Source: Candidatus Poribacteria bacterium (GTDB lineage Bacteria > Poribacteria > WGA-4E > WGA-3G). From it: a DNA stretch of 64,000 nt. The DNA is taken from the NCBI GenBank assembly GCA_022827885.1, contig JAJEIP010000117.1:1-64000 (forward strand), in the 5' to 3' direction. The notes beneath the pieces were generated by a model. That model was not told where the DNA came from. It ran no database searches and worked only from the letters and a program-made list of their open reading frames with translations. Shown here in pieces: positions 601 to 13,900 of this stretch; positions within the stretch are counted from its first letter, which is position 1; every line of letters starts with the position of its first letter. The position numbers and the translations under genes are program-made.

Positions 601-740
601 TCGTATACTCCAAAAAATTAACGTCGCCACATTTATTTTGCAACAGAGTTAAGTATACCACAGGAAACGCTGAATGTCAAATTTATTTTGCAACAGAGTT
701 AAGTATACTCCAAAAAATGATAAACGTCAAATTTATTTTA
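601..740. repeat. Tandem 50-bp AT-rich repeats (about 2.8 units)
   Basis: Units start near 601, 651 and 701. Each has a GTATAC(T/C)C(A)C head, a variable middle, and a GTCAAATTTATTTTG-CAACAGAGTT tail; the third unit is cut short at about 740. The last unit overlaps the stop codon of pafA (738-740), so the repeat has replaced or formed the end of that gene. The GTATAC core is palindromic. No reading frame is evident. Confidence 0.75.
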
Positions 741-2189
741 GGTGCGTGGGGGGCGTTTTCGTAGTCGTTTCATCCATCTTTGCGCCTTCGCGACGCTGGT
801 GTCAAACGGTTCTTTCATCTCAAAATATTCTGTATGTCCTGCATATATTTGATGCCAATCAACAATACAAGGCATTCGGTTTTGGGTGAGGGTACGCATC
901 AGGAATGCCCGAACTTTGGCACGGGTATCTTGTGGGGCATTTTCTACGGCGTATTGAATATGTTCATCGGTCACAACTCTTTGCATCTGTCCCTGTTCCT
1001 GAAGTGCGTAGTAAAGCCCGCTTTCCGTCCGAATATTATGATATTCCAAATCTTGACTTTTAATCCAAGCGTCTTCCCAATCCAATTTTTCTTCATCAAT
1101 AAAAGCTTCGAGCAGCCATTTCTTTGCCGCCCAATCGACGCGATCAATAACATTTAGCCACCCATCTTCGAGGTCATCAAGGATAGACTCCCATGCCGCA
1201 AGCACCCATTCGGTTTCCTCGTCCGGTTCGATAGTCAAAGCCTGAACGAAGTTAAGATACTCTCTCTGTAAATCAACAGCAGAGATCGTTTTCCCCGATT
1301 TCAGTTCGACGCGCCACGCGAAGGTATTATCGCGTGAGATGTGCCGAATCGCGTAAACGGGATCCGCGAGTTCGAAACTCGGTAGTGGCAATTTTTCGCC
1401 ATACATGTCGTGGAATGTTTCAATAGCAGAGAGCAAAAGTGCGGTCGTGCCTACTTTCAAGGCGGTTGCGTACTCTGACATATTGGAATCGCCAACGAGA
1501 AGATGGAGGCGCCGGTATTTTGTGTAATCGCTGAGGGGTTCGTCTCGTGTATTGATGATGGCGCGGCTGAACTGAATCCATTCGTATATTTCAGTGACGA
1601 TGTGATCGGCGCGCTGCGAGATTTGATAGTATTGATGCTCGGCAAGTTCGTCGTGAAAATCACCGAATTCAATCATTTCATCATAAGCCCCGACTCTGCC
1701 CGCCCCGGCGTAAATTTGGCGTGTAACGAAGAAGGGCATAAGTGTCGGGATGACAACACGGAAAAAGGGGACGTCCCGACTGATTTGGAAGTTTTCGTGA
1801 CATCCGAAGGTTGCCCCTGTAAAATGATCAATATTATTTTTGAAGAACGCCGTGGGTAGCCCTGTATCCGTAAGGATATTGTTGATGACATGTTCAATGG
1901 CTTTATCGTAAGCGATAAGGTCAAAGAGTGTGCCACATTCGGGAGTCGCGTACTCCAGATGCCCCATATCGATATAGAGCCGTCCGCCATTGTATAGGAA
2001 TCCACCGTTGCCCGGGGGTTCGCCCCAGTCGCGGTAATGGATATCCCGGAGACCGAGTTCCAACACATCGAAGACATAATCTCGGACGCGCGCAGCAACC
2101 CCTTCAGAAGTGCCACGCACCCGTTCGGTATCCGTCATGCATCCAAATTCAGTTTCGATTCCAAAAATTCTTTTTTCCATCTTTTTCAC
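738..2189 (-). CDS. pafA: Pup/UBact-protein ligase PafA
   Basis: This protein is a carboxylate-amine ligase of the glutamine-synthetase-like fold that attaches the C-terminal Glu of the tagging protein to substrate lysines. It starts KRIFGIETEFG, the PafA/Dop nucleotide-binding loop, and carries NGGRLYIDMGHLEYATPEC with the catalytic Asp. It also has NTRDEP, YRRLHLLVGDSNMSEYATALKVGTTAL and a C-terminal VDW. The C-terminus (TRAKVRAF..VDW) follows PafA, not Dop. It is the last gene of the mpa-dop-ubact-prcB-prcA-pafA operon, 48 nt after prcA. GTG at 2189 and ATG at 2180 are both possible starts, and neither has a clear Shine-Dalgarno. About 480 aa is the usual family length. Confidence 0.93.
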   Translation of the reverse strand: MKKMEKRIFGIETEFGCMTDTERVRGTSEGVAARVRDYVFDVLELGLRDIHYRDWGEPPGNGGFLYNGGRLYIDMGHLEYATPECGTLFDLIAYDKAIEHVINNILTDTGLPTAFFKNNIDHFTGATFGCHENFQISRDVPFFRVVIPTLMPFFVTRQIYAGAGRVGAYDEMIEFGDFHDELAEHQYYQISQRADHIVTEIYEWIQFSRAIINTRDEPLSDYTKYRRLHLLVGDSNMSEYATALKVGTTALLLSAIETFHDMYGEKLPLPSFELADPVYAIRHISRDNTFAWRVELKSGKTISAVDLQREYLNFVQALTIEPDEETEWVLAAWESILDDLEDGWLNVIDRVDWAAKKWLLEAFIDEEKLDWEDAWIKSQDLEYHNIRTESGLYYALQEQGQMQRVVTDEHIQYAVENAPQDTRAKVRAFLMRTLTQNRMPCIVDWHQIYAGHTEYFEMKEPFDTSVAKAQRWMKRLRKRPPRT

Positions 2190-2237
2190 TATTAAATCTG
2201 TTAACCATCAACTCGTGTTTTAACACTTATACAGCAC

Positions 2238-3008
2238 TTAGGGAAGGGCATCTTCAATTTCCTGAGAGGTTAGCAGCCGAAATTTACTTGTTCCGCGTTG
2301 GGTCGTCTCCAAAACCCCGGCTTCAATTTCACCATCTTCCCGTGCAAGCTTGATAATTTCGTGCATCTGGGAAGTATCTATCTGGGTGTCCTCCGATTCA
2401 GTTTCCTCCGGTGCCCGTGAACTCAATTCTCTACCAACTGCCCACGCTTCTAAACCCAACTGGAGCGCAGCGGCTAAATCTCTGTCGGCATCTGTAGAAG
2501 CCGTCGCGAGATAGTTTTGCATTCCCGTCTCGATGGTTTCTGTACCGCCGATAACGGTAGCGGTTGTGTCTGTTCGGACATTCCCGTCGTAGTTGATACA
2601 GGTAAAACGGTTTTTATCGTCCGTGCTGCCGAGTTCGGCGAGCAACATTTTAATGATATACGCTTCACCGACAATGGACTCAAACGCTTGTTTAAAGGTA
2701 TGTGCTAAAACAAAGTTCGTGAGTCGGTGTAGGTTGACATCCTCGGTGGCGTTTTGGAAACCTTGGACGCTGGCGGTATCGGTAACAAGCATTCGGAGGC
2801 GTTCAATATCGGCGGGATGTCCGATTGCGGAGAGTGCGATTCGGTCGTGCACTTCAAAAATTTTGCGTTGTCCTCTCCCAATCGTGAGTAGCACCATGCC
2901 TTGGTTATAGGTAAGTCCTACGACGGGACTTCCGACCCGAAGTTGGTCTTCAATGTAGTCTCGTCGGTCCTGGATCGCTTCTATCCAGCGATACGGTTCA
3001 TCTCGCAT
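2238..3008 (-). CDS. prcA: 20S proteasome alpha subunit PrcA
   Basis: This 256-aa protein is the gate-forming, non-catalytic alpha subunit of the bacterial 20S core particle. Visible features are VVGLTYNQGMVLLTIGRGQRK, the KIFEVHDRIALSAIGHPADIERLR block typical of PrcA, and an acidic C-terminal tail. No N-terminal nucleophile Thr is present, as expected. It follows prcB after a 283-nt gap filled by two copies of a dispersed repeat. The repeat tail CCGTAAGGAATAATTAAAAA abuts the ATG at 3008 and seems to serve as its ribosome-binding region. Confidence 0.93.
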   Translation of the reverse strand: MRDEPYRWIEAIQDRRDYIEDQLRVGSPVVGLTYNQGMVLLTIGRGQRKIFEVHDRIALSAIGHPADIERLRMLVTDTASVQGFQNATEDVNLHRLTNFVLAHTFKQAFESIVGEAYIIKMLLAELGSTDDKNRFTCINYDGNVRTDTTATVIGGTETIETGMQNYLATASTDADRDLAAALQLGLEAWAVGRELSSRAPEETESEDTQIDTSQMHEIIKLAREDGEIEAGVLETTQRGTSKFRLLTSQEIEDALP

Positions 3009-3117
3009 TTTTTAATTATTCCTTACGGTTTTTTAATTATTCCTTGCGGTTAGACGCCGCGGGTTTGCGCTTTGACATCCCGTTCTGAAATCCGCTCTCC
3101 ATTTCATTACGAGCTAC
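3009..3117 (-). repeat. Dispersed repeat family B, copy 1 (upstream of prcA)
   Basis: On the minus strand the element runs from GTAGCTCGTAATGAAATGGAGAGCGG to a duplicated tail, CCGCAAGGAATAATTAAAAA followed by CCGTAAGGAATAATTAAAAA. It ends immediately before the prcA ATG. Head and tail match the copies at 3131-3242, 5874-5961 and 10458-10546, while the middle differs. The tail offers AAGG as a weak Shine-Dalgarno about 11 nt from the start codon. Confidence 0.75.
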
Positions 3118-3130
3118 GCGCTTTGGACGA

Positions 3131-3242
3131 TTTTTTAATTTTTCCTTGCGGTTCGGTAAGGTGCGTTTGGAGAATAATGTGCGTTTCCGCGTATTTAGGG
3201 GAAATGCCCGAGCAAAAACCCCTTCACTACGTTACGGACTAC
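3131..3242 (-). repeat. Dispersed repeat family B, copy 2 (prcB-prcA spacer)
   Basis: This is a second copy in the same orientation. It has head GTAGTCCGTAACGTAGTGAAGG and tail CTTACCGAACCGCAAGGAAAAATT. The interior is the most diverged of the four copies. Together with copy 1 it fills nearly all of the prcB-prcA intergenic region; nothing else is visible there. Confidence 0.65.
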
Positions 3243-3291
3243 ACGCCTTCTATAACATACCTTAGAAATTAGGTATGGAAGCGAGACTAAA

Positions 3292-4140
3292 CTAAACAGT
3301 CTCTCCGTCTGGTTGTGCTTCAGCGTAACAGGTCTCCAATTCATCGTCGGAAATATCTTCAACGCCGGTGCGTGTCACAGTTTTGATATTTGGGAATATT
3401 TGTGCCCTTGCGTTGTACCCACTTGTTGCGGCATCATACTCGCTGGCTGTGTCCAAAAGTCGTAAGATCGTGATGGTCGCCTGCTGCTCATCCATCTCCT
3501 GCAAGGGTGTGTCCCCGAATCGAGAGAGATAGCGTAAAACGCCGCGGATCCAGATGGAGCCGGAACCGGTCGTGGCAAAATTGACGTTTTCAAAATGTGC
3601 ACCGAGTGCGTCATAGAAGAAAATCTTGCCGCCATTCTCGTCATCAGCGGCATTCAAATCGTAGAGTGCAAAGATCGGGATAACGCCTCCGATACCTTGA
3701 AGTGCCATCGGCAGATTCTCCCGGATGAGCCGCGATAGCATTCGAAGCTTGCCTTCAAGACTCAATTCTTGGAGCTGGCTGCGGCGAAAGTATTGAAACG
3801 AATGCTCCAATATTCTGGCGATCTCATAAGCGATTGCGGGTGAACCTGAAATAGCGAGCACAGAGTGCCTATCGATCTGTAAAACTTTCTCTGCGCGATC
3901 ATAGATGACAGAAGTGCCAGCGGTGGCACGCCGATCGCCTGCGATCATAACGCCATCCCGGTAACGGACAGCAACAACGGTTGTACTATGTGCTATCTCA
4001 ATGTCAACCCCGTGCTGTGTTGTTTCCGATGGCACATCTATTTTCAAAGGATAGTTTGCTTGTTTTAAAAGGCTTAGGAAGTCCCCTTTATGGTTATCGC
4101 TTGATTTAACGCTTTGCGAATTATCAAAAAAAGCGTTCAT
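3292..4140 (-). CDS. prcB: 20S proteasome beta subunit PrcB
   Basis: This 282-aa protein is the catalytic beta subunit of the core particle, made as a precursor. A propeptide of about 52 residues precedes HS-TTVVAVRYRDGVMIAGDRRAT, so the N-terminal nucleophile should be Thr53 after self-cleavage. Lys in the DRAEKVLQID block and the SGSPAIAYEIARILEH segment fit the beta fold. The residue before the cleavage site is Ser, where the Mycobacterium protein has Gly. The ATG overlaps the ubact stop (TAATG) with GGGGGAG just upstream, so tag and protease are probably translationally coupled. Confidence 0.93.
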   Translation of the reverse strand: MNAFFDNSQSVKSSDNHKGDFLSLLKQANYPLKIDVPSETTQHGVDIEIAHSTTVVAVRYRDGVMIAGDRRATAGTSVIYDRAEKVLQIDRHSVLAISGSPAIAYEIARILEHSFQYFRRSQLQELSLEGKLRMLSRLIRENLPMALQGIGGVIPIFALYDLNAADDENGGKIFFYDALGAHFENVNFATTGSGSIWIRGVLRYLSRFGDTPLQEMDEQQATITILRLLDTASEYDAATSGYNARAQIFPNIKTVTRTGVEDISDDELETCYAEAQPDGETV

Positions 4141-4337
4141 TACTCCCCCGTTCTTTGGCGATACCGTCTGGACTGATCTTTGTCAACACGGCGCATCCGT
4201 TTGAGCAGTTCTTGTGTATCGGGCCTGCTGACTTTCTGTCTTTTGGGTCCCTCGTTATCACCCTCACCATCACCGGGGCCGATGGGTTTGGTGTCCCTTT
4301 GCTTACGTTCAAGTTGAGCAATCATTTTGGCTGTCAT
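4140..4337 (-). CDS. UBact-type ubiquitin-like protein modifier (Pup analogue)
   Basis: This is a 65-aa, highly charged, probably disordered protein in the exact position of pup, between dop and prcB. The C-terminus is RQRTGE, matching the R-(T/S)-G-(E/Q) ending known for the UBact family of Gram-negative bacteria rather than the GGQ/GGE of actinobacterial Pup. Because it already ends in Glu, no deamidation would be needed before ligation. A helical stretch (TQELLKRMRRVDKDQ, about residues 41-55) precedes the tail and may bind the Mpa coiled coil. The ATG at 4337 has AAAGGAGACATAAA upstream. A longer upstream reading frame exists but lacks this good site. Confidence 0.92.
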   Translation of the reverse strand: MTAKMIAQLERKQRDTKPIGPGDGEGDNEGPKRQKVSRPDTQELLKRMRRVDKDQSRRYRQRTGE

Positions 4338-4353
4338 TTTATGTCTCCTTTTT

Positions 4354-5946
4354 TTATAGATGCAACTTCTCAATGAGCGTCTCAACGGTTGGCGATTGAT
4401 CGAGTACCTCGTTATATTGGCGTGCGATCTCTGCATCCGCGAGGGCATTTAGATTGACTTCGCGAGTGCGTCCGTTTACAGTGAAGGTAATACTATCCCA
4501 CTGTATAGCCTTTATGGCACTGCTGAATCGATCTACGGCGCGTCCGCGGAAGTATGCCCGTGTGTCAGCAGGTGGATTATGGAGGGCGGCATCAATCTGT
4601 TCGTCCGTAACGACGCGCCGCATCGGAATCCCATAGTATAACCCTTCATCAAGATCGATGTTATGATATTCTAAATCCAAACTTTGGAGCCATGGGTCAT
4701 CCCAGGCGACCCCCTCTTCCTCAGCAAACGTTTCAAGCAGCCATTTTTTCGCGACCCAATCCAGTCGATCCGTGAGCGACATTGGATCCGCCTCAAGGGC
4801 GTTGAGGGTATCCTCCCACTCCGTGAGCACCCAGTCGGTTTCAGGTAGGCACGAGGTTCCTCCGCTATTGCTAAGATGCTTCTGTGCGAGGGCAAGATAC
4901 TCACGTTGATGGTCGATAGCGGACATTGTTTTCCCCTCCGCCGTCATTACTATCCAACGATACGTCTGGTCATGCGATACAGTTTTGATGGTATCAATGG
5001 GGTTGACGAGTGCTAACCGCTCTGGGACCTGCCGTTGTTCAATCAAGGTAATCACAAGTGCTGTCGTACCGACCTTGAGTGCCGTTGCGTATTCGGACAT
5101 ATTCGCATCTCCCGCAATGCCGTGTAATCTACGATATTTAGAGGCATCCGCATGCGGTTCATCACGCGTATTGACGATAGGGCGGTTATGCATGGTATCC
5201 ACACTCGCCTCCACGTGAAAGAAATCGGATCTTTGAGATAACTGGTAGTGTCCTGGGGTCGCGAGTCCGGCTTCTGTTTCAATGCCAATTTTTCCTGCGC
5301 CTGCGAAGATCTGGCGTGTGATAAAGAAGGGCATGATACCTTGCTTGAGCGTTTCGAACGGGACTTCGCGTGCCATCAGGTAGTTATCGTGGCATCCATA
5401 ACTATGTCCATGGAAATCGGTATTATTTTTGTATAAAAGCACCCGTTTTCCGAGTTTCTGACTGCGCGTTTCGGCACACCGTTGAAGGATACGTTCGCCG
5501 GCTTTATCGTGTGCGACGAGGTCGAAGAGACGACTGCATTCAGGCGTTGAATACTCCGGGTGTGCGTGGTCGTTGTAGAGCCGTGCCCCGTTCGCGAGGA
5601 TGTGATCACTTTTGATTTCAGCAAAAGAGAGCCGTTCTTTAGTATTACGGTTCCGATCGCGCTCTTCCTCTTCCTTCTCATCAGGGTGATTGGAAAGGGC
5701 GCTCGCCCGAAAGCCGCGTTCATCTCGAAACGGGTCCTCGCCGCGGTAATCCCACACGGGTCGAAAATCTTCCTGTCGGTAGCTTTTTATGAGCTCAATA
5801 GATTGCTTGACGGCATCAAGGTGCGCTTCATTTTCGAGTGTTATTCCGTATTCAGTTTCGATTCCAAAAAGTCTTTTAATTTTACCTTGCGGTTCGGTGA
5901 GGCGAATTATACAAACAACGATCCTCTCCGTAGAACCGCCCTCCAC
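4354..5946 (-). CDS. dop: Depupylase/deamidase Dop homologue
   Basis: Dop removes the tag from substrates and can deamidate it in systems whose tag ends in Gln. The sequence has RLFGIETEYGI, the Dop-specific WDYRGEDPFRDERGF loop, NGARLYNDHAHPEYSTPEC with the nucleophilic Asp, YRRLHGIAGDANMSEYATALKVGTTAL, and the Dop C-terminus TRAYFRG..WDSITF, which separates it from PafA. The first 24 residues of the frame come from a dispersed repeat, and the only conventional start is the GTG at 5946 inside it. The expected start, just before KRLFG, would be an ATT codon preceded by AAGGTAAA. The start is therefore unsettled. Confidence 0.9.
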   Translation of the reverse strand: MEGGSTERIVVCIIRLTEPQGKIKRLFGIETEYGITLENEAHLDAVKQSIELIKSYRQEDFRPVWDYRGEDPFRDERGFRASALSNHPDEKEEEERDRNRNTKERLSFAEIKSDHILANGARLYNDHAHPEYSTPECSRLFDLVAHDKAGERILQRCAETRSQKLGKRVLLYKNNTDFHGHSYGCHDNYLMAREVPFETLKQGIMPFFITRQIFAGAGKIGIETEAGLATPGHYQLSQRSDFFHVEASVDTMHNRPIVNTRDEPHADASKYRRLHGIAGDANMSEYATALKVGTTALVITLIEQRQVPERLALVNPIDTIKTVSHDQTYRWIVMTAEGKTMSAIDHQREYLALAQKHLSNSGGTSCLPETDWVLTEWEDTLNALEADPMSLTDRLDWVAKKWLLETFAEEEGVAWDDPWLQSLDLEYHNIDLDEGLYYGIPMRRVVTDEQIDAALHNPPADTRAYFRGRAVDRFSSAIKAIQWDSITFTVNGRTREVNLNALADAEIARQYNEVLDQSPTVETLIEKLHL

Positions 5947-5961
5947 TTCGTTACGGGCTAC
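5874..5961 (-). repeat. Dispersed repeat family B, copy 3 (dop N-terminus)
   Basis: On the minus strand the head is GTAGCCCGTAACGAAGTGGAGGGCGG and the tail ACCGAACCGCAAGGTAAAATT. Read in frame with dop it encodes EGGSTER near its start and TEPQGKIK at its end, the same peptides that copy 4 adds to the lipid kinase at 10458-10546. The element is joined directly to the conserved RLFGIETEYG block of Dop. Confidence 0.8.
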
Positions 5962-6009
5962 TGAAACTTAACAAGAACATGAAGAATTGGCAAAACCCCG
6001 AAGTGTCCC

Positions 6010-7830
6010 CTAAATAACGCGGGAGCCGGAGGTTTTGCGTCGCTCCTGTTTCTCCGCCTTGATAGGTGTCACCTTAACAACATTCACTGGATCGTAATCA
6101 AGGAGTTTGAGCCAGTCTTCAGTCGCCTCAGTCGGCGGGAATATTTCGCTTTCACCATACTCTGCTGCGAGGGCATTTAACAGGTCGGCGCGCGTGATAC
6201 CACTTTCCTTCTCTGGGTTCTGAATTGCACGTTTGAGTGCGGACTCCTTCGCCCGCTGCACAATCGACTCAATAATTGCACCGCTGCAGAGATGTCCTTT
6301 ATAGAGGATATCACGTCTGCCACTCCTGAGAGACACTTCAAGGAATCGGTTATCTTCCTCTTCACGGAACATCTCATCGACGACCTGTGCGATAAGATCA
6401 GCAACGGCTTTCTCAGCCGGGATAACTTCGGGGGGTGTTTCACCGTTTCCTGTTTCGGTATCCTTCTCCGCATTCAGGAGTGAAGCGATAGGGAGTTCAG
6501 GGGTGAGGTAGATACGGAAGATATCCTTTGCAGCCTCTGCATCTGGACGTGTTACTTTAATCTTTCGATCAATGCGCCCTGGGCGTAAAATGGCAGGGTC
6601 AATCAAATCAGGCCGGTTTGTCGCCAAAATAATGACGACATCCTGCAGTGATTCAATACCATCCATCTCTGCACAAAACATCGGAACGAGTGTATTCGAG
6701 ATACTGTGGGATCTGAGTGCCCGGCGTGTCCCGAGTATTGACTCGGCTTCATCGATAAAGACGAAAGCCAGTTTGCCATCCTCTTTTTTCTCACGGGCGA
6801 TCTGAAAAATTTCTCGCACTTTCCGCTCAGATTCGCCGAGCCACATGTTGAGAATTTCAGGACCTTTGATATGTAAGAAACAGCCTTCAACATCCTCGCC
6901 GCTTTCCCTTCGGAGCCGTTGGGTTAAATTGTAAGCCGTCGCCTTGCCAATGAGCGTTTTTCCACAGCCTGGAGGTCCGTGGAGCAGGAAACCTTTCGGT
7001 GCACTGTATTGGAATCGTTCAAAAAGTTCGGGGTGCAGGATCGGCAGTTCAATTGTGTCCTTAATGCGTTGGATAGTGTCCTCAAGCCCACCGACCTTTG
7101 ACCAGGGTATATTCGGGACCGCCTCAAGTGCGTAAGCGTCTGTCTCTTTGGCGGCGATATGTTCAAGGGCGACACGGAAATTGGAGTCAATCCGCACCTC
7201 ATCACCGGGCTTCAGTTTTTCATCTGCGAGGTCCGTGGAGCGTTCAAGGATGACAGTTTGCGCGTTCGGTTCTTGACCGATCCGGAGCCGTCCATCTGGC
7301 ATGACATCGGCGATCTTTGCAATGGGACCTGCATCGTTGTATCCGAGTTCGCCGACAACGACAAAAGCGTCGTTCAATAGGATGCTGAACCCCTTTTTAA
7401 GGGTGGACGCTTTCAGTTCTGGATCAATATTCGCATAGTATTCGGAGCCACCGACGATAACGCGGGCAATATCTTCTTTGGGCAATCCGAGCAAGGTTCC
7501 GATCCGATTCGCCGGTGCGGTGAGTTTTTCAATCTGCTCCTCCATTTCGGCGTGGATACGGAGTGCCTCCTGCTGAATAGCACGGACCCTCTCCTGAAAT
7601 TCACCTTCATCACTGAGAATAGAGCGCCGGAGTTCCATGAGCCAGCGACGGCGCCGGTCATCTACCGGGGTCTCGGCAATAATGTGGTGAATTAATTGCA
7701 ACGAATAGCCAGAACCCATCGCCTCCTCTTCGGGAGCGAGTTCCTCTTCAAGTTCCTCGTCATCTTCAATAAACAGGTCATTCCCATCGGGACCTGGACC
7801 CGCAGTTCTACGATTCTTCTTATCGTACAT
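6010..7830 (-). CDS. mpa: Proteasome-activating AAA ATPase (Mpa/ARC)
   Basis: This 606-aa ring ATPase recognises tagged substrates and feeds them to the 20S core. An acidic N-terminus (1-40) is followed by a coiled-coil region (about 55-105), tandem OB-type domains (about 110-235), and an AAA domain with VGGL at 247-250, Walker A GPPGCGKT at 285-292, Walker B FVFIDEAES at about 356-364 and ATNRPDLIDPAILRPGRIDRK. The C-terminus is TSGSRVI. It lacks the GQYL/HbYX tail that mycobacterial Mpa uses to dock on the core. The ATG at 7830 has AGGAG upstream. It is the first gene of the proteasome operon. Confidence 0.93.
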   Translation of the reverse strand: MYDKKNRRTAGPGPDGNDLFIEDDEELEEELAPEEEAMGSGYSLQLIHHIIAETPVDDRRRRWLMELRRSILSDEGEFQERVRAIQQEALRIHAEMEEQIEKLTAPANRIGTLLGLPKEDIARVIVGGSEYYANIDPELKASTLKKGFSILLNDAFVVVGELGYNDAGPIAKIADVMPDGRLRIGQEPNAQTVILERSTDLADEKLKPGDEVRIDSNFRVALEHIAAKETDAYALEAVPNIPWSKVGGLEDTIQRIKDTIELPILHPELFERFQYSAPKGFLLHGPPGCGKTLIGKATAYNLTQRLRRESGEDVEGCFLHIKGPEILNMWLGESERKVREIFQIAREKKEDGKLAFVFIDEAESILGTRRALRSHSISNTLVPMFCAEMDGIESLQDVVIILATNRPDLIDPAILRPGRIDRKIKVTRPDAEAAKDIFRIYLTPELPIASLLNAEKDTETGNGETPPEVIPAEKAVADLIAQVVDEMFREEEDNRFLEVSLRSGRRDILYKGHLCSGAIIESIVQRAKESALKRAIQNPEKESGITRADLLNALAAEYGESEIFPPTEATEDWLKLLDYDPVNVVKVTPIKAEKQERRKTSGSRVI

Positions 7831-8105: not shown

Positions 8106-9941
8106 ATGACACTCATATCTCTGTTAGAACACTCAATCCAACACTATGGCAGTAAACCAGCATTGGCACATAAACCGAAAGGTGGCACCTATCAAGACAT
8201 CTCTTATACTGAATTTGGCGAATCGGTGGACGCTTTCTGTAAAGGGTTAAACGCTTTAGGGGTGCAAAAGGATGATCGGGTCGCGCTTCTCTCTGAGAAC
8301 CGTCCCGAATGGGCGATCACGGATTTTGGTAGCCTCAAAGCCGGTGCGGTAACCGTGCCGATGTTCTCAACGCTGACTGCGGCGCAGGTCGGTTATATCC
8401 TAAAAGATTCCGGATCAAAAATTATCTGTGTCTCCACGAGTCGGCAGTTGGAGAAGGTAACCGCTATCCGAGATGAAGTGCCGACACTTGAACAGATAAT
8501 TGTCTTTGATCCGATTGAAGGTGAACTCCCTGAAGGTGTTATCCAATTTGAGGCGGTCTGTGAATTGGACGGACAGGGACAAGAAATCGGGGTTAGAAAC
8601 CCCTCCCACGCGAGCGAAGACGACATCGGGGTTAGAAACCCCTCCCACGCGAGCGAAGACGACATCGCAACGATTATCTATACTTCGGGGACAACGGGGG
8701 ATCCGAAGGGGGTCATGCTGACACATGCGAATTTCATTTCAAATTTACAGGCGTGTAAATCGCTGATTGAGGTCAGTGATGTAGACGTGTTGCTGTCGTT
8801 CCTACCGCTATCACATGTATTTGAGCGGCTCGGCGGGCATTATGTGCCGTTGTCCTCGGGTGCGAAGGTGGCTTACGCCGAGAGCACGTTCACGGTCGCA
8901 CAGAATATGCGGGAGGTCGCCCCGACAGTGATGCTCAGCGTGCCGAGACTCTATGAAACCATGCATGACAGAATCCTGCGTGCCGTGCAGGAAGGCTCAC
9001 CGCTCAAACAGAAGATCTTCCATTGGGGTGTCTCCGTGGGTTCATCCGTCAGTTCAGCGATTCAAAACGGGAAAAAACCGTCTGCAATTTTGCAATTACA
9101 ACAGAACATTGCGGACAAACTGGTTTTCGCGAAATTGAAGGCGGCAACGGGGGGACGGCTACGTTTCTTCGTCTCAGGTGGCGCGGCGTTACCACAATCG
9201 ATCGCCGAGTTTTTCCACGCGGCAGGAATATTGATTTTGGAAGGGTACGGTTTAACGGAGACATCGCCCGTCATTAGTATGAACCATCCTGCACAATGGA
9301 AGTTTGGAACCGTTGGCGTGCCTGCTCCCGGTGTGGAGGTGCACATCGCTGAAGATGGTGAGATTCTAACCCGCGGTCCACACGTCATGAAGGGGTATTT
9401 CAATAACGAAGCCGCGACAGCAGAGGTCATCGATGAAGAGGGTTGGTTTTACACGGGGGACATCGGTATCATTGATGCGGATGGATTCGTTAAGATTACT
9501 GACCGGAAGAAGAATATTATTGTGCTTTCCAACGGTAAGAACGTCGCCCCGCAACCGATAGAGAGTGAATTGGTGCAAAGTCCGTTTATTGACCAGATTA
9601 TGCTGGTCGGCAATGAACGTAAAAATCTCGCGGCACTGATTGTCCCGAATTTCGAGGCGCTCAAGGCGTGGGCAGCGGAGAATAACGTTGCAACGGGAGG
9701 GACGGACAGGGAGACTCCGCCCCTACATGAGACGCGTGAGGTGCAGCAACTCATTCAAAGCGAAATCCGAAGTCGTTTAACCGATTTCTCGGACTTTGAA
9801 CAGGTGCGCCGGTTTAAACTCCTTGAAAAGGAGTTCTCACAAGAAGCGGATGAGATGACCCCCACGCTGAAGTTGAAGCGGAATGTCATTATGGCGCGAT
9901 ACGGAGATGCGATTGCAGAGATGTATCCAGAAGACTCCTAA
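8106..9941 (+). CDS. Long-chain acyl-CoA synthetase (AMP-forming)
   Basis: This is a FadD/FAA-type enzyme of about 611 aa that activates fatty acids to acyl-CoA through an acyl-adenylate. The adenylate-forming core motif TIIYTSGTTGDPKGVMLTH is intact. Others seen are FVSGGAALP, LEGYGLTETSPVIS, GWFYTGDIG, and KITDRKKNIIVLSNGKNVAP with the C-terminal Lys loop. ATG 8106 is chosen because AGGAGG lies 8-13 nt upstream and the protein then begins at the normal family start. A 39-bp unit is tandemly duplicated just before the P-loop motif, adding two copies of GVRNPSHASEDDI. A second repeat-derived segment lies near 9696-9726 (GGTDRETPPLHE). Confidence 0.92.
   Translation: MTLISLLEHSIQHYGSKPALAHKPKGGTYQDISYTEFGESVDAFCKGLNALGVQKDDRVALLSENRPEWAITDFGSLKAGAVTVPMFSTLTAAQVGYILKDSGSKIICVSTSRQLEKVTAIRDEVPTLEQIIVFDPIEGELPEGVIQFEAVCELDGQGQEIGVRNPSHASEDDIGVRNPSHASEDDIATIIYTSGTTGDPKGVMLTHANFISNLQACKSLIEVSDVDVLLSFLPLSHVFERLGGHYVPLSSGAKVAYAESTFTVAQNMREVAPTVMLSVPRLYETMHDRILRAVQEGSPLKQKIFHWGVSVGSSVSSAIQNGKKPSAILQLQQNIADKLVFAKLKAATGGRLRFFVSGGAALPQSIAEFFHAAGILILEGYGLTETSPVISMNHPAQWKFGTVGVPAPGVEVHIAEDGEILTRGPHVMKGYFNNEAATAEVIDEEGWFYTGDIGIIDADGFVKITDRKKNIIVLSNGKNVAPQPIESELVQSPFIDQIMLVGNERKNLAALIVPNFEALKAWAAENNVATGGTDRETPPLHETREVQQLIQSEIRSRLTDFSDFEQVRRFKLLEKEFSQEADEMTPTLKLKRNVIMARYGDAIAEMYPEDS
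8586..8663 (+). repeat. Tandem 39-bp in-frame repeat carrying palindrome family A
   Basis: Two identical 39-bp units (8586-8624 and 8625-8663) each contain the hairpin GGGGTT-AGA-AACCCC followed by CTCCCACGCGAGCGAAGACGAC. Thirty-nine is a multiple of three, so each adds 13 residues (IGVRNPSHASEDD) without breaking the gene. The same palindrome occurs at 12793, 25544, 25593 and 48292. Confidence 0.9.
9696..9726 (+). repeat. Dispersed repeat family C inside the acyl-CoA synthetase gene
   Basis: The segment runs GGAGGGACGGACAGGGAG-ACTCCGCCCCTAC. The GCCCCTAC end is shared with the copies at 13001-13029 and 26926-26950, and the GGAGGGACGGA start recurs at 56230-56240. It is read in frame. Confidence 0.5.
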
Positions 9942-9961: not shown

Positions 9962-10966
9962 TCAACGGGGTGCCATTACCGCAAGTCCATGCTTGATAAT
10001 CTCGATTGTGGCAGGGGTTTCGCACATCGGCTCGCCATCGGCATACAGCAGCATAGGGGTATCCGTCTCAATTGTTAACCTGCGGGTCTGGTGCATAGAT
10101 ACGGCAGGATGTGAAACGTGTCCCCCCCAGAAAAGTGTCACCAGTAGCCGTAGCACCGTTAGAGAGGACACTGGACGGATAATACAAACATCGAAAAGCC
10201 CATCGTCGATGCGAGCCTTCGGCACAATTTGAAATCCACCCCCGTATCGGTTTGTGATGCCGGTCGCAGCGAGGAGGAGCGGTCCCTCGTGGACACCGAA
10301 ATCGCCTTCAAGACGGACGAACGGCGGGTCGTAATAGAAAAGCGTCTCTACGGCTGCGTAAGCATAGGAGGCAGTGCCTGCAAAGAGGGGGGTTCCCTTC
10401 GCCGCCCGGCGACTCACCTCCGTATCGTAACCGCAAGTGGCGATGGTAATGAAGTAGTTTTTAATTTTTCCTTGCGGTTCGGTCGGTGAGGTTTGGACAT
10501 TGAAGCACCTTTCCGTAGATCCGCCCTCCATTTCATTACGGGCTACATCATTTGGATTAACAGCTGACTGTTGACTGCTATTCTGGTAGCAACATCCTAA
10601 ATCCACACGGATAGGGGTGCCGGATAAGAGGGTTTCAATCGCGGCTTCCGGTTTCAGTGGGACGCCGATCGCCGCTGCGAAATCGTTGCCACGACCACAG
10701 GGAAGCACCCCCAAGGTTACATCGGGAACCGTTGCAATACCATTGACGACTTCGTGGAGTGTCCCATCACCCCCGCACGCAATTACGGATCGGACGCCAT
10801 CAGAGACGGCTTCTTGTGCGAAACGCTTGGCGTCGCCGGATGCCGAGGTGAAGGTCAATTGTCCCTGCGCCCCGGATTCCGTAAGCGTCGTATACGCCTG
10901 TTCAGCAATGCTTTTCGCGTGTCCTTTACCTGAAATGGGGTTTGCAATGAGAATAAAATTCTTCAT
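9962..10966 (-). CDS. Lipid/diacylglycerol kinase family protein with repeat insertion
   Basis: This 334-aa protein has the DAGK catalytic domain: ILIANPISGKGHA at the N-terminus, the nucleotide-binding ACGGDGTLHEVVNGI, and LGVLPCGRGNDFAAAIGVPL. The family phosphorylates diacylglycerol or related lipids at the membrane. Its ATG overlaps the subtilase stop (ATGA), so the two are probably co-transcribed. After VDLGCC a foreign segment of about 45 residues (including EMEGGSTER and TEPQGKIK) interrupts the usual link to the ITIATCGYDTEV strand. It is encoded by repeat copy 4 and keeps the frame. Whether the product remains active cannot be told. Confidence 0.85.
   Translation of the reverse strand: MKNFILIANPISGKGHAKSIAEQAYTTLTESGAQGQLTFTSASGDAKRFAQEAVSDGVRSVIACGGDGTLHEVVNGIATVPDVTLGVLPCGRGNDFAAAIGVPLKPEAAIETLLSGTPIRVDLGCCYQNSSQQSAVNPNDVARNEMEGGSTERCFNVQTSPTEPQGKIKNYFITIATCGYDTEVSRRAAKGTPLFAGTASYAYAAVETLFYYDPPFVRLEGDFGVHEGPLLLAATGITNRYGGGFQIVPKARIDDGLFDVCIIRPVSSLTVLRLLVTLFWGGHVSHPAVSMHQTRRLTIETDTPMLLYADGEPMCETPATIEIIKHGLAVMAPR
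10458..10546 (-). repeat. Dispersed repeat family B, copy 4 (inside the lipid kinase gene)
   Basis: On the minus strand the head is GTAGCCCGTAATGAAATGGAGGGCGG and the tail GACCGAACCGCAAGGAAAAATT. It matches copy 3 in dop in both end sequences and in the encoded peptides EGGSTER and TEPQGKIK. The gene frame is open through the whole element. Confidence 0.85.
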
Positions 10967-13900
10967 TTTATGACTGCGATTTTACCTATCCTTTTTTCGG
11001 TCTCAAATTCAAGGACATAGATATAGATACCCGTTGATACGTCTGCGGTGTTATTGCTCGTAAGCCACCACTCTTTGCGGTTGTGATCCTGATCGGTCAC
11101 ATCCAATGTTTCAAGTAACTCACCGCCTGCAGTAAAAAGTTGGATGCGGGTGCCGATAGGCAACCTATCGAAAGTGATTGCCCCTTTGTCAGCGACGTTA
11201 GGACGGATCGGATTTGGATAGACCCGCACTTGCGTCAGGTCAGACACTGCCACTCCGATAACATCGAGGGGTATTTCAAGCGGTTGTGTAGAAGCGCGGA
11301 TAGGATTCTCATCAATATCGACCACATTCGAGACGGTAATCTCATATTGGTCTGTTGTATCGGTGAGCGATTGCCCGAAGTGCTCAAGCAGACTGCCTGT
11401 ATCAAATGCCAAGAGTGCGCGCCTCCCCATCCTGTCTCGGATAGCGGACACCGGACTCACCCCCCCAATCCGCGCCGCGGCTCGTAAGACGTACCGGTTC
11501 TCATTCCCAATTCCGGGATCCATCCGCCGGTCAAAGGTGACGAGGACCCAGAAATTTCCACTTGTGGAACCCCCATTAGGTGTCTGAGTTTCAGATTCCG
11601 GGAACTGAGTTAGATGTCCACCACCTCCTGGACGATGATAGGTCGCCCCAATCAACTGAGGGGGTTCCCGCGGTGTCGCAGCAACAGGCTCGGTGCGTTC
11701 CGTTTCGTTCCCGTCTTCATCCTTCGTGGTGATAGTGTACCAGTAGGTATTATCCTTCGTAACTCGCCTGTCAAGAAACCTTGTGACGGTGAGGTTTTCT
11801 GCCACCTTTTCATAAGTGTCGGAGGCGGGTGTCTCCGTCTTTTCCCCTTGTGCGCGGTAGACAGTAAAATAGTGCGTCTGACCTGTCTGTTCCGTATCCG
11901 TTTCGTTGTTCTTCTCGGCCTCCCATGTAACGTGCACCACTTTTTGTGTTAGCGGTTTTGCTTCAACGTTCCACGGCTTAAGCGTATCAATGGCATTTGG
12001 GTCGGTTGCGTAGATGGATTCAAAGTGGTAGATACCCTCTTCAAGGTTAACGTAAAACTCATCGAACCCGTTTTGGTTGAGTTCCGCGGTCAGGAGCGCG
12101 GGGGTTTCCTCCATCTTTCGGTGCCAGAGGGGGACCATCGCCGTGCCATTCCACTGCATCACATAGAGATTTGGATAGGTCGCGATGATCAACCGATTGT
12201 GCCCATTACCTTCCAAGTCCGCGATTGCGAGACTATTCCCGCTTCGTCGGTGCGGTGCAATCGCGACAGTCGCGTGACGCGGTCCCTCTGAGAGCAGTGC
12301 GTAGCCATTTAGTGTATGCGTGAAGACAAAAAACTTCCAGATGAGGGGTCCCGAAGGGTTCGCTGGAAGCGACAGCAACCCCCCAACAACAAACTCAGGC
12401 ATGCCATCACCGGTGAGATCCCCAGCAGTGAGTTGCGTGATGTCCGCAAGCGGAAGTTGTGTCTGCCATTCAAGGCGAAACGTGTTGTGGATAGAGGTAG
12501 ATTCATAAACGAAAAGGTCCCCTTCGCTATCTGCTGCTATGAGTTCCATGCGCCCATCAGCATCAAAATCGTTAATAGCGAAGTTTTGCGCGAATACATT
12601 AGAGCCAGCGGACTCGTTCATCAAAACAGCCCGCTCAAGATATGTGCGTGTCGCAGGGTCGTATTCATAAACGAGGAGTCGGTCATTGTTGTTATCGGCA
12701 CCGATAATTTCCTTTTGTCCATCACCATCCAAATCGGCGATCGTGCCACCGGAGAGAAATGGGGTTTCCCAGATGATCTGGTGCGGGAATTCGGGGTTAG
12801 AAACCCCTCCCACACCAAGATTCTCAATAAGGAAGGTTCTTGCATCGTCGGTTGCCAAGACTTCGAGCAAACCATCGTTATCGGTGTCATCTACTGTCCA
12901 CGTAACGAATTTTTCGAGATTGGAGAGTCCGTCTATACTCTCAAGGGTATGCGCCAGTTCATATCTTCCGTTTGGAAGCCGTTCATAGACGGCGAGGATA
13001 GTGGAGGGATTGGGTAACCCAGCCCCTACGGTGTCAAGCGTTTCCGAGGACACCGGACTTCCGACGATTTCAAACTGACCGTCTCTGTCGAAGTCTGCGG
13101 TGACGCTTGCGATGTGGAGGGGTGGAATATTGAGAGATTTTTCAGTGAATCCGCTCGGCGAGATATAACCAGCGACAACCTCAGTTGTATAAAACGCGCC
13201 GCCGTTATCCTCTCTCGTCTTGAGATTTGTCGTATTCTCTGCTTCAACAAAAAACTGGTAAGTTCCGCGCTCTAAACCCAAAAATAGGAATTGTTCTACG
13301 CCGAGATCGGTTGTTTCAATAGGAGCGAAAGGTGCGAGACTCCCCTTTCGTCGGTAGTAGAGTGTATTCAGCGTGACATCATCTGTTGCCCATGTGAAAA
13401 TTGTAAGGGGTCGCTCGCCGTAAAGTGTATCCGTTGCGGTAAGGGAAATAATTTGCGGAGGGGTCCGGTCTACACTCAACACGACCTGATCGTGTATCTG
13501 TTGCCCATCCGTGGCGGTTGTTGTTAAACGGACAGTATAAATCCCCTCTGGGACGGTTGTGGTATCCCAAACAACCAACGTCTCACCGATTTTTTGGACA
13601 TTGGAAGATTGTGTGAAAGGCGTAAATTGGGTTGGAACTGTGGATTCGCCATAACTGAGCTGCCAAGAACGGAACTTATAGCCACCTGCTGTTCCGAAGA
13701 TAGTAATTGAATCCGCGCCGCCACTATTGGTTTCAGGTGCGAGGATACGTGCCTGTAGGACACCGCTTGCGAGGAGTGCGCGTTCAGCATTGACAGTGCC
13801 CGCCCCTACAAACCTTTCATCCAATGCCTCGCTCTCCTCTTGGAAAACAGGATCGGCGGTGCTAATGAGTATATGTCGCACCTCTTCATGTGTCAGGGTG

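Follow-up and report, generated by a model that had tools for sequence, protein, structure and literature searches.

Coexisting UBact-type and Pup-type proteasome operons in Candidatus Poribacteria

The first 64,000 nucleotides of contig JAJEIP010000117.1 (assembly GCA_022827885.1) from a Candidatus Poribacteria bacterium, here called the window, contain a six-gene operon for a small protein tag of the UBact type, a predicted ligase and deconjugase for this tag, a proteasomal ATPase and the two subunits of a 20S proteasome. The locus raises the question of whether such an operon provides the only tag-proteasome system of its cell and, if a second system is present, how the two would be kept apart. 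We found that most genomes of this phylum of sponge-associated bacteria carry two complete tag-proteasome systems, one of the UBact and one of the Pup type, a combination seen in no other sampled lineage. The explanation that we consider probable is that two parallel and largely insulated tag-degradation pathways operate in one Poribacterial cell.

Two complete operons in one genome

The window operon occupies positions 7830-738 on the minus strand in the order mpa-dop-ubact-prcB-prcA-pafA, and all six frames are open. A preliminary description had proposed a complete operon in this order on one strand and had assigned it to the UBact rather than the Pup type; the curated models and the gene order conserved in relatives bore out both proposals. 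The tag gene ubact (4337-4140, minus strand, as are all genes of the operon) encodes a basic protein of 65 amino acids that can be read directly to end in RTGE, as described. This protein scored about twice the cut-off of both UBact models (PF20513, 66.7 bits against 27.8; NF033388, 70 bits against 35). The Pup models searched gave no match to it, and it was also absent from the Pup matches of the genome. Its stop codon overlaps the start codon of prcB in a TAATG at 4142-4138; this overlap, which the preliminary description had pointed out, is real, and 45 of 76 related loci have TAATG or TGATG between the same two genes.

Upstream of the tag, mpa (7830-6010) encodes a UBact-type proteasomal AAA ATPase of 606 amino acids with the Pfam domains AAA and Prot_ATP_ID_OB N/C (448.7 bits against TIGR03689, below the cut-off of 504.75), and dop (5946-4354) encodes the predicted deconjugase (PF03136, 562 bits; TIGR03688, 489.8 bits with a cut-off of 492.3), with homology beginning at about codon 23, near position 5880. 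Downstream follow prcB (4140-3292), a 20S beta subunit of 282 amino acids with a propeptide before the catalytic Thr1 (PF00227; TIGR03690, 168.7 bits); prcA (3008-2238), an alpha subunit of 256 amino acids that has the pocket lysine (KIFEVHDR) and altered pocket residues (PF00227, 34 bits; TIGR03691, 71.9 bits, below the cut-off); and pafA (2189-738), the predicted UBact ligase of 483 amino acids (PF03136, 446.7 bits). Measured against the curated models of the Pup system, Mpa, Dop, PafA, PrcA and PrcB of the window all remained below the cut-offs. A model-matching tag with the C-terminal pattern R[TS]G[EQ], adjoining Dop and PafA homologues, 20S subunits and Mpa are all present, and the window operon is a complete UBact operon, a kind of system that is already known. 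The catalytic residues of the beta subunit (Thr1, Asp17 and Lys33) and the activator-pocket lysine of the alpha subunit are invariant in both the UBact and the Pup types, and the catalytic triplet is unchanged across 81 UBact-type PrcB sequences.

The two related enzymes of the operon could be distinguished by their motifs. Dop carries a Dop-loop (WDY) with the conserved Trp and the motif DHAHPEYSTPE; PafA is without the loop and has the motif DMGHLEYATPE, which is one residue shorter than the Pup-type DIGCHPEYATPE. An exchange of the two assignments was ruled out because the Dop-loop occurs only in the first enzyme, and the dop and pafA labels of the preliminary description were kept. The predicted structure of the UBact PafA (mean predicted local distance difference test score, pLDDT, of 83) failed to discriminate between the two enzymes, giving a template modelling (TM) score of about 0.8 to both PafA and Dop crystal structures.

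Family searches of the same genome revealed a second complete operon, mpa-dop-pup-prcB-prcA-pafA, at C14:53180-59806 (locus L207). Its tag ends in GGQ and exceeded the cut-offs of both Pup models (PF05639, 59.1 bits; TIGR03687, 50.4 bits). Mpa (720 bits), Dop (584 bits), PrcB (287 bits) and PrcA (240 bits) were also above their curated cut-offs, so that five of the six proteins passed; PafA reached 523.1 bits, with a cut-off of 551.3. In the enzyme tree, the ligase and depupylase of this operon clustered with Corynebacterium glutamicum PafA and A. cellulolyticus Dop. The inventory of the genome came to exactly four PF03136 proteins (two Dop and two PafA) and exactly five PF00227 proteins (two alpha subunits, two beta subunits and HslV). 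In another genome, a further PafA-like protein lies outside both operons (L266, G004:C215:6730-7932); it is encoded within a frame of 661 amino acids and is 48% identical to Pup-type PafA.

We examined 85 genomes of Candidatus Poribacteria, nearly all of them metagenome-assembled, and 302 genomes from outside the phylum. The UBact tag was above the cut-off in 76 of the 85, which shows that the 65-amino-acid frame is conserved in relatives; Pup was above the cut-off in 76 as well, and 69 genomes had the pair. Among the others, several look like losses through assembly or threshold: in G027 and G010, UBact-type Mpa and Dop are present on short contigs that break off ahead of the tag, whose gene would follow, and in G009 the Pup score was slightly below the cut-off. 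Two members of the phylum outside the class of the window genome (G001 and G002) have neither tag, and both operons are spread across the families of one class. Among the 302 outside genomes, six had UBact and 11 had Pup, and none had both; Pup was also found in none of 47 further UBact genomes of other phyla. One outside genome (G181) has two Pup genes, on C79 and C59, both above the cut-off. None of the open-access papers searched, which did not include subscription papers and preprints, gives an account of UBact and Pup in one genome.

Separation of the two pathways

In the mechanism that we favour, PafA of the window operon would attach UBact through its terminal Glu to lysines of target proteins, whereupon Dop could detach the tag again, and Mpa would unfold the tagged proteins and feed them into the PrcA/PrcB 20S chamber. 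The Pup pathway encoded elsewhere in the genome would run alongside, so that the cell would have each component in two versions: tag, ligase, depupylase-type enzyme, unfoldase and 20S proteasome. Both sets are present with intact catalytic residues, have been long conserved, are under purifying selection and differ by fixed sequence differences; from this we infer that both pathways are probably active, insulated from each other and divided in their substrates.

Separation may take place at two levels, the first being oppositely charged tags matched by their own ligases. In the window genome the UBact tag has a net charge of +7 and the Pup tag of -20, and the corresponding ligases have net charges of -28 (UBact PafA) and 0 (Pup PafA). 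The chemistry at the tag terminus is also predicted to differ. Because UBact already has a terminal Glu, no deamidation would be required of its Dop, which would act in deconjugation only, as the preliminary description had proposed. By the rules of pupylation, the Dop of the second operon would have to deamidate a Pup ending in Gln. The UBact C-terminus was RTGE in 74 of the 76 Poribacterial genomes with the tag and RTGQ in two (G007 and G008), and these two tags would still require deamidation.

At the second level, UBact Mpa would dock to its own core through its C-terminal Val-Ile and an altered alpha pocket. The window Mpa ends in ...SRVI, with no Tyr or Phe at the penultimate position, in contrast to the GQYL/HbYX type, in which a penultimate aromatic residue is the known docking motif (PMC8755798). 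All 74 UBact-linked Mpa sequences of Poribacteria end in an aliphatic pair, which is Val-Ile in 70 and follows a variable linker, whereas all 49 Pup-linked loci encode an Mpa with [YF][LF] at its end. The UBact-linked Mpa sequences read from other phyla, among them Armatimonadota and Latescibacterota, were all aliphatic at the C-terminus too. In PrcA, Lys52 (M. tuberculosis numbering), the lysine that binds the tail carboxylate, is invariant in both types. The residue two positions after it is aromatic (Phe or Tyr) in all 78 UBact-type sequences and Ser in 50 of 54 Pup-type sequences, and strand geometry suggests that this residue lines the pocket. At the position of Arg26, which in M. tuberculosis PrcA contacts the penultimate Tyr of GQYL (PMC11953334), Leu, Val, Pro or Gly predominate in UBact-type PrcA, and Pup-type PrcA has Gln, Lys or Arg. 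The gate region of PrcA likewise differs in the UBact type. The aromatic residue thus appears in effect to have been shifted from the Mpa tail to the alpha pocket region, and the differences in tail and pocket suggest a docking code.

Several points weigh against insulation at these two levels. The charge of a whole ligase is a crude proxy for that of its tag groove, and the placement of the aromatic residue in the pocket rests on strand geometry and not on a complex. We looked for co-variation of tail and pocket within each clade and found none; the differences are fixed between the two clades and therefore represent few evolutionary events. Some cross-talk, for example of an Mpa with either core, may occur.

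Sequence comparison placed the two sets in two old lineages. Paired UBact- and Pup-operon proteins within the window genome are 35-43% identical. UBact-operon proteins of other phyla are nearest to the window set, and Pup-operon proteins of other phyla are nearest to the second operon. A recent duplication of the Pup operon as the source of the UBact system was rejected, since the window proteins group with the UBact operons of other phyla. In the tree of ligases and depupylases, Dop and PafA of each type formed a clade of their own, four in all, and the crystallised enzymes C. glutamicum PafA and A. cellulolyticus Dop fell within the Pup-type groups. The trees preferred a grouping of the two UBact enzymes on one side and the two Pup enzymes on the other (support 100/99 and 96/98), but in the approximately unbiased (AU) test this preference was marginal (p = 0.042) or not significant (p = 0.18). 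If this topology is true, the ligase arose twice, contrary to the single duplication that has been published (PMC7947786), and the UBact ligase may have arisen from a depupylase independently of the Pup ligase. The fuller proposal, in which the pathways are mutually insulated, the UBact proteasome is opened by an aliphatic tail, not of the HbYX type, that sits in a re-shaped alpha pocket, and the UBact ligase is perhaps of independent origin, we regard as evenly balanced between true and false.

If the window contained an ordinary UBact operon and the Pup operon were a redundant or decaying acquisition, then the two would overlap in function and share tags, ATPases or core subunits. The homology of all proteins in pairs, the identical gene order and the pocket lysine retained in both cores speak for this reading. 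However, nearly every genome has the two sets intact, and the ratio of non-synonymous to synonymous substitution rates (dN/dS) between species of the genus lies at 0.02-0.15 for all twelve genes, which means that both operons are maintained. Both sets also occur across families of one class and have therefore been retained side by side over a long period. The core subunits are just 35% identical, the tags are of opposite charge and the C-terminal difference of Mpa is fixed. We consider redundancy unlikely. Less likely again is that the aliphatic tail of UBact Mpa has no docking role, the ATPase making no contact or a different contact with the 20S core. The Val-Ile tail is indeed unlike the described HbYX/GQYL activators, and the alteration of the PrcA gate would be in keeping with another mode of contact, but the near-uniformity of Val-Ile in Poribacteria, the aliphatic endings of the remainder and of other phyla, and the invariance of the carboxylate-binding lysine speak against this reading. 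An origin of the co-occurrence in mixed metagenome bins, to which the many metagenome-assembled genomes and the separate contigs of the two operons in the window genome might point, is refuted by nine genomes that have both tags on a single megabase contig (G080, G082, G083, G084, G047, G023, G081, G029 and G028; six of them one-contig assemblies), and the proteins of the second operon are 90-98% identical to the Pup-operon proteins of the nearest relatives.

Relation to known systems

The UBact conjugation and proteasome system was described by Lehmann et al. (2017, BBRC, cited in PMC5751360; Pfam PF20513), and the window operon shares its tag family, gene set, gene order and R[TS]G[EQ] terminus. 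Poribacteria add a coexisting full Pup system; neither this nor the aliphatic Mpa tail is reported in the papers searched. The actinobacterial Pup-proteasome system, to which the second operon belongs, has homologous enzymes, the same operon order and the same predicted chemistry. Its tag is acidic and ends in GG[EQ] and its Mpa is GQYL-like, whereas the window tag is basic, ends in RTGE and is accompanied by an Mpa ending in -VI. A 2017 analysis divided bacterial proteasomes into two subclusters found in different lineages (PMC5666114). The window PrcA and PrcB are nearest to UBact-linked subunits of lineages in its Gram-negative subcluster (armatimonadetes, nitrospirae and verrucomicrobia), but the Poribacterial genome carries both types, which that analysis placed in separate lineages. 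According to a 2026 review, proteasome-bearing bacteria encode a single form of the core, with Rhodococcus erythropolis, which has more than one alpha or beta subunit, as the sole named exception (PMC13022661). Each Poribacterial core is presumably likewise built from one alpha and one beta type; Poribacteria differ in carrying two distinct core sets with two tag systems.

What is new here is a cell with two systems and a distinct predicted coupling of ATPase and core, in which the insulation of parallel pathways becomes directly testable. Bacterial proteasomes have been described with one core and one tag for each species. Two complete systems in one phylum amount to a natural experiment on how homologous tag pathways are separated and on the substrates of each, and Poribacteria provide a pair of candidate orthogonal tag-ligase-proteasome sets. 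If the Val-Ile tail and altered pocket function as proposed, they would extend the rules of gate opening by ATPases beyond the penultimate tyrosine.

The six-gene UBact operon is conserved in about 70 loci, and nearly all Poribacterial genomes with the tag have the same gene order. In one family (G007-G011; L254-L258, L059, L072, L073 and L077) the operon is split, with mpa-dop apart from ubact-prcB-prcA-pafA; the two genomes with an RTGQ tag belong to this family. In G006 (C3:110304-111442) a UBact-type pafA is interrupted by several in-frame stop codons, possibly through a sequencing or assembly fault. Outside Poribacteria, UBact is present in Armatimonadota, Verrucomicrobiota and Latescibacterota. 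Most Verrucomicrobiota loci (L299-L362) are ubact-prcB-prcA clusters, and neither mpa nor dop nor pafA could be recognised in the flanks examined.

Interspersed repeats and neighbouring features

In relatives, Dop begins with M-x-RLFGIETEYG. The dop reading frame of the window opens at a GTG at position 5946, and its first 22 or so codons derive from a copy of an interspersed repeat of about 88 bp (5874-5961, minus strand). Because this repeat covers the start point used by the relatives, the true start of the window dop is uncertain. Related copies make up the 283-bp spacer between prcB and prcA (3009-3291), for which the median in relatives is about 82 bp, and a further copy lies at 10458-10546. 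One copy is in frame within a diacylglycerol-kinase-like reading frame, and two stand beside start codons, those of dop and prcA. The end of the repeat, ACCGAACCGCAAGGWAWAATTAAAA, includes an AAGGA stretch resembling a ribosome-binding site and had 161 matches in the genome; the reversed control had none.

A different short repeat (ATCGGGGTTAGAAACCCC...) occurs in frame as two tandem copies in an acyl-CoA-ligase-like reading frame (8586-8664) and once in a protease reading frame (12790-12807). Just downstream of pafA lie a tRNA-Ala gene (513-588) and the 5' end of a 23S rRNA gene, recognised by eye (1-190).

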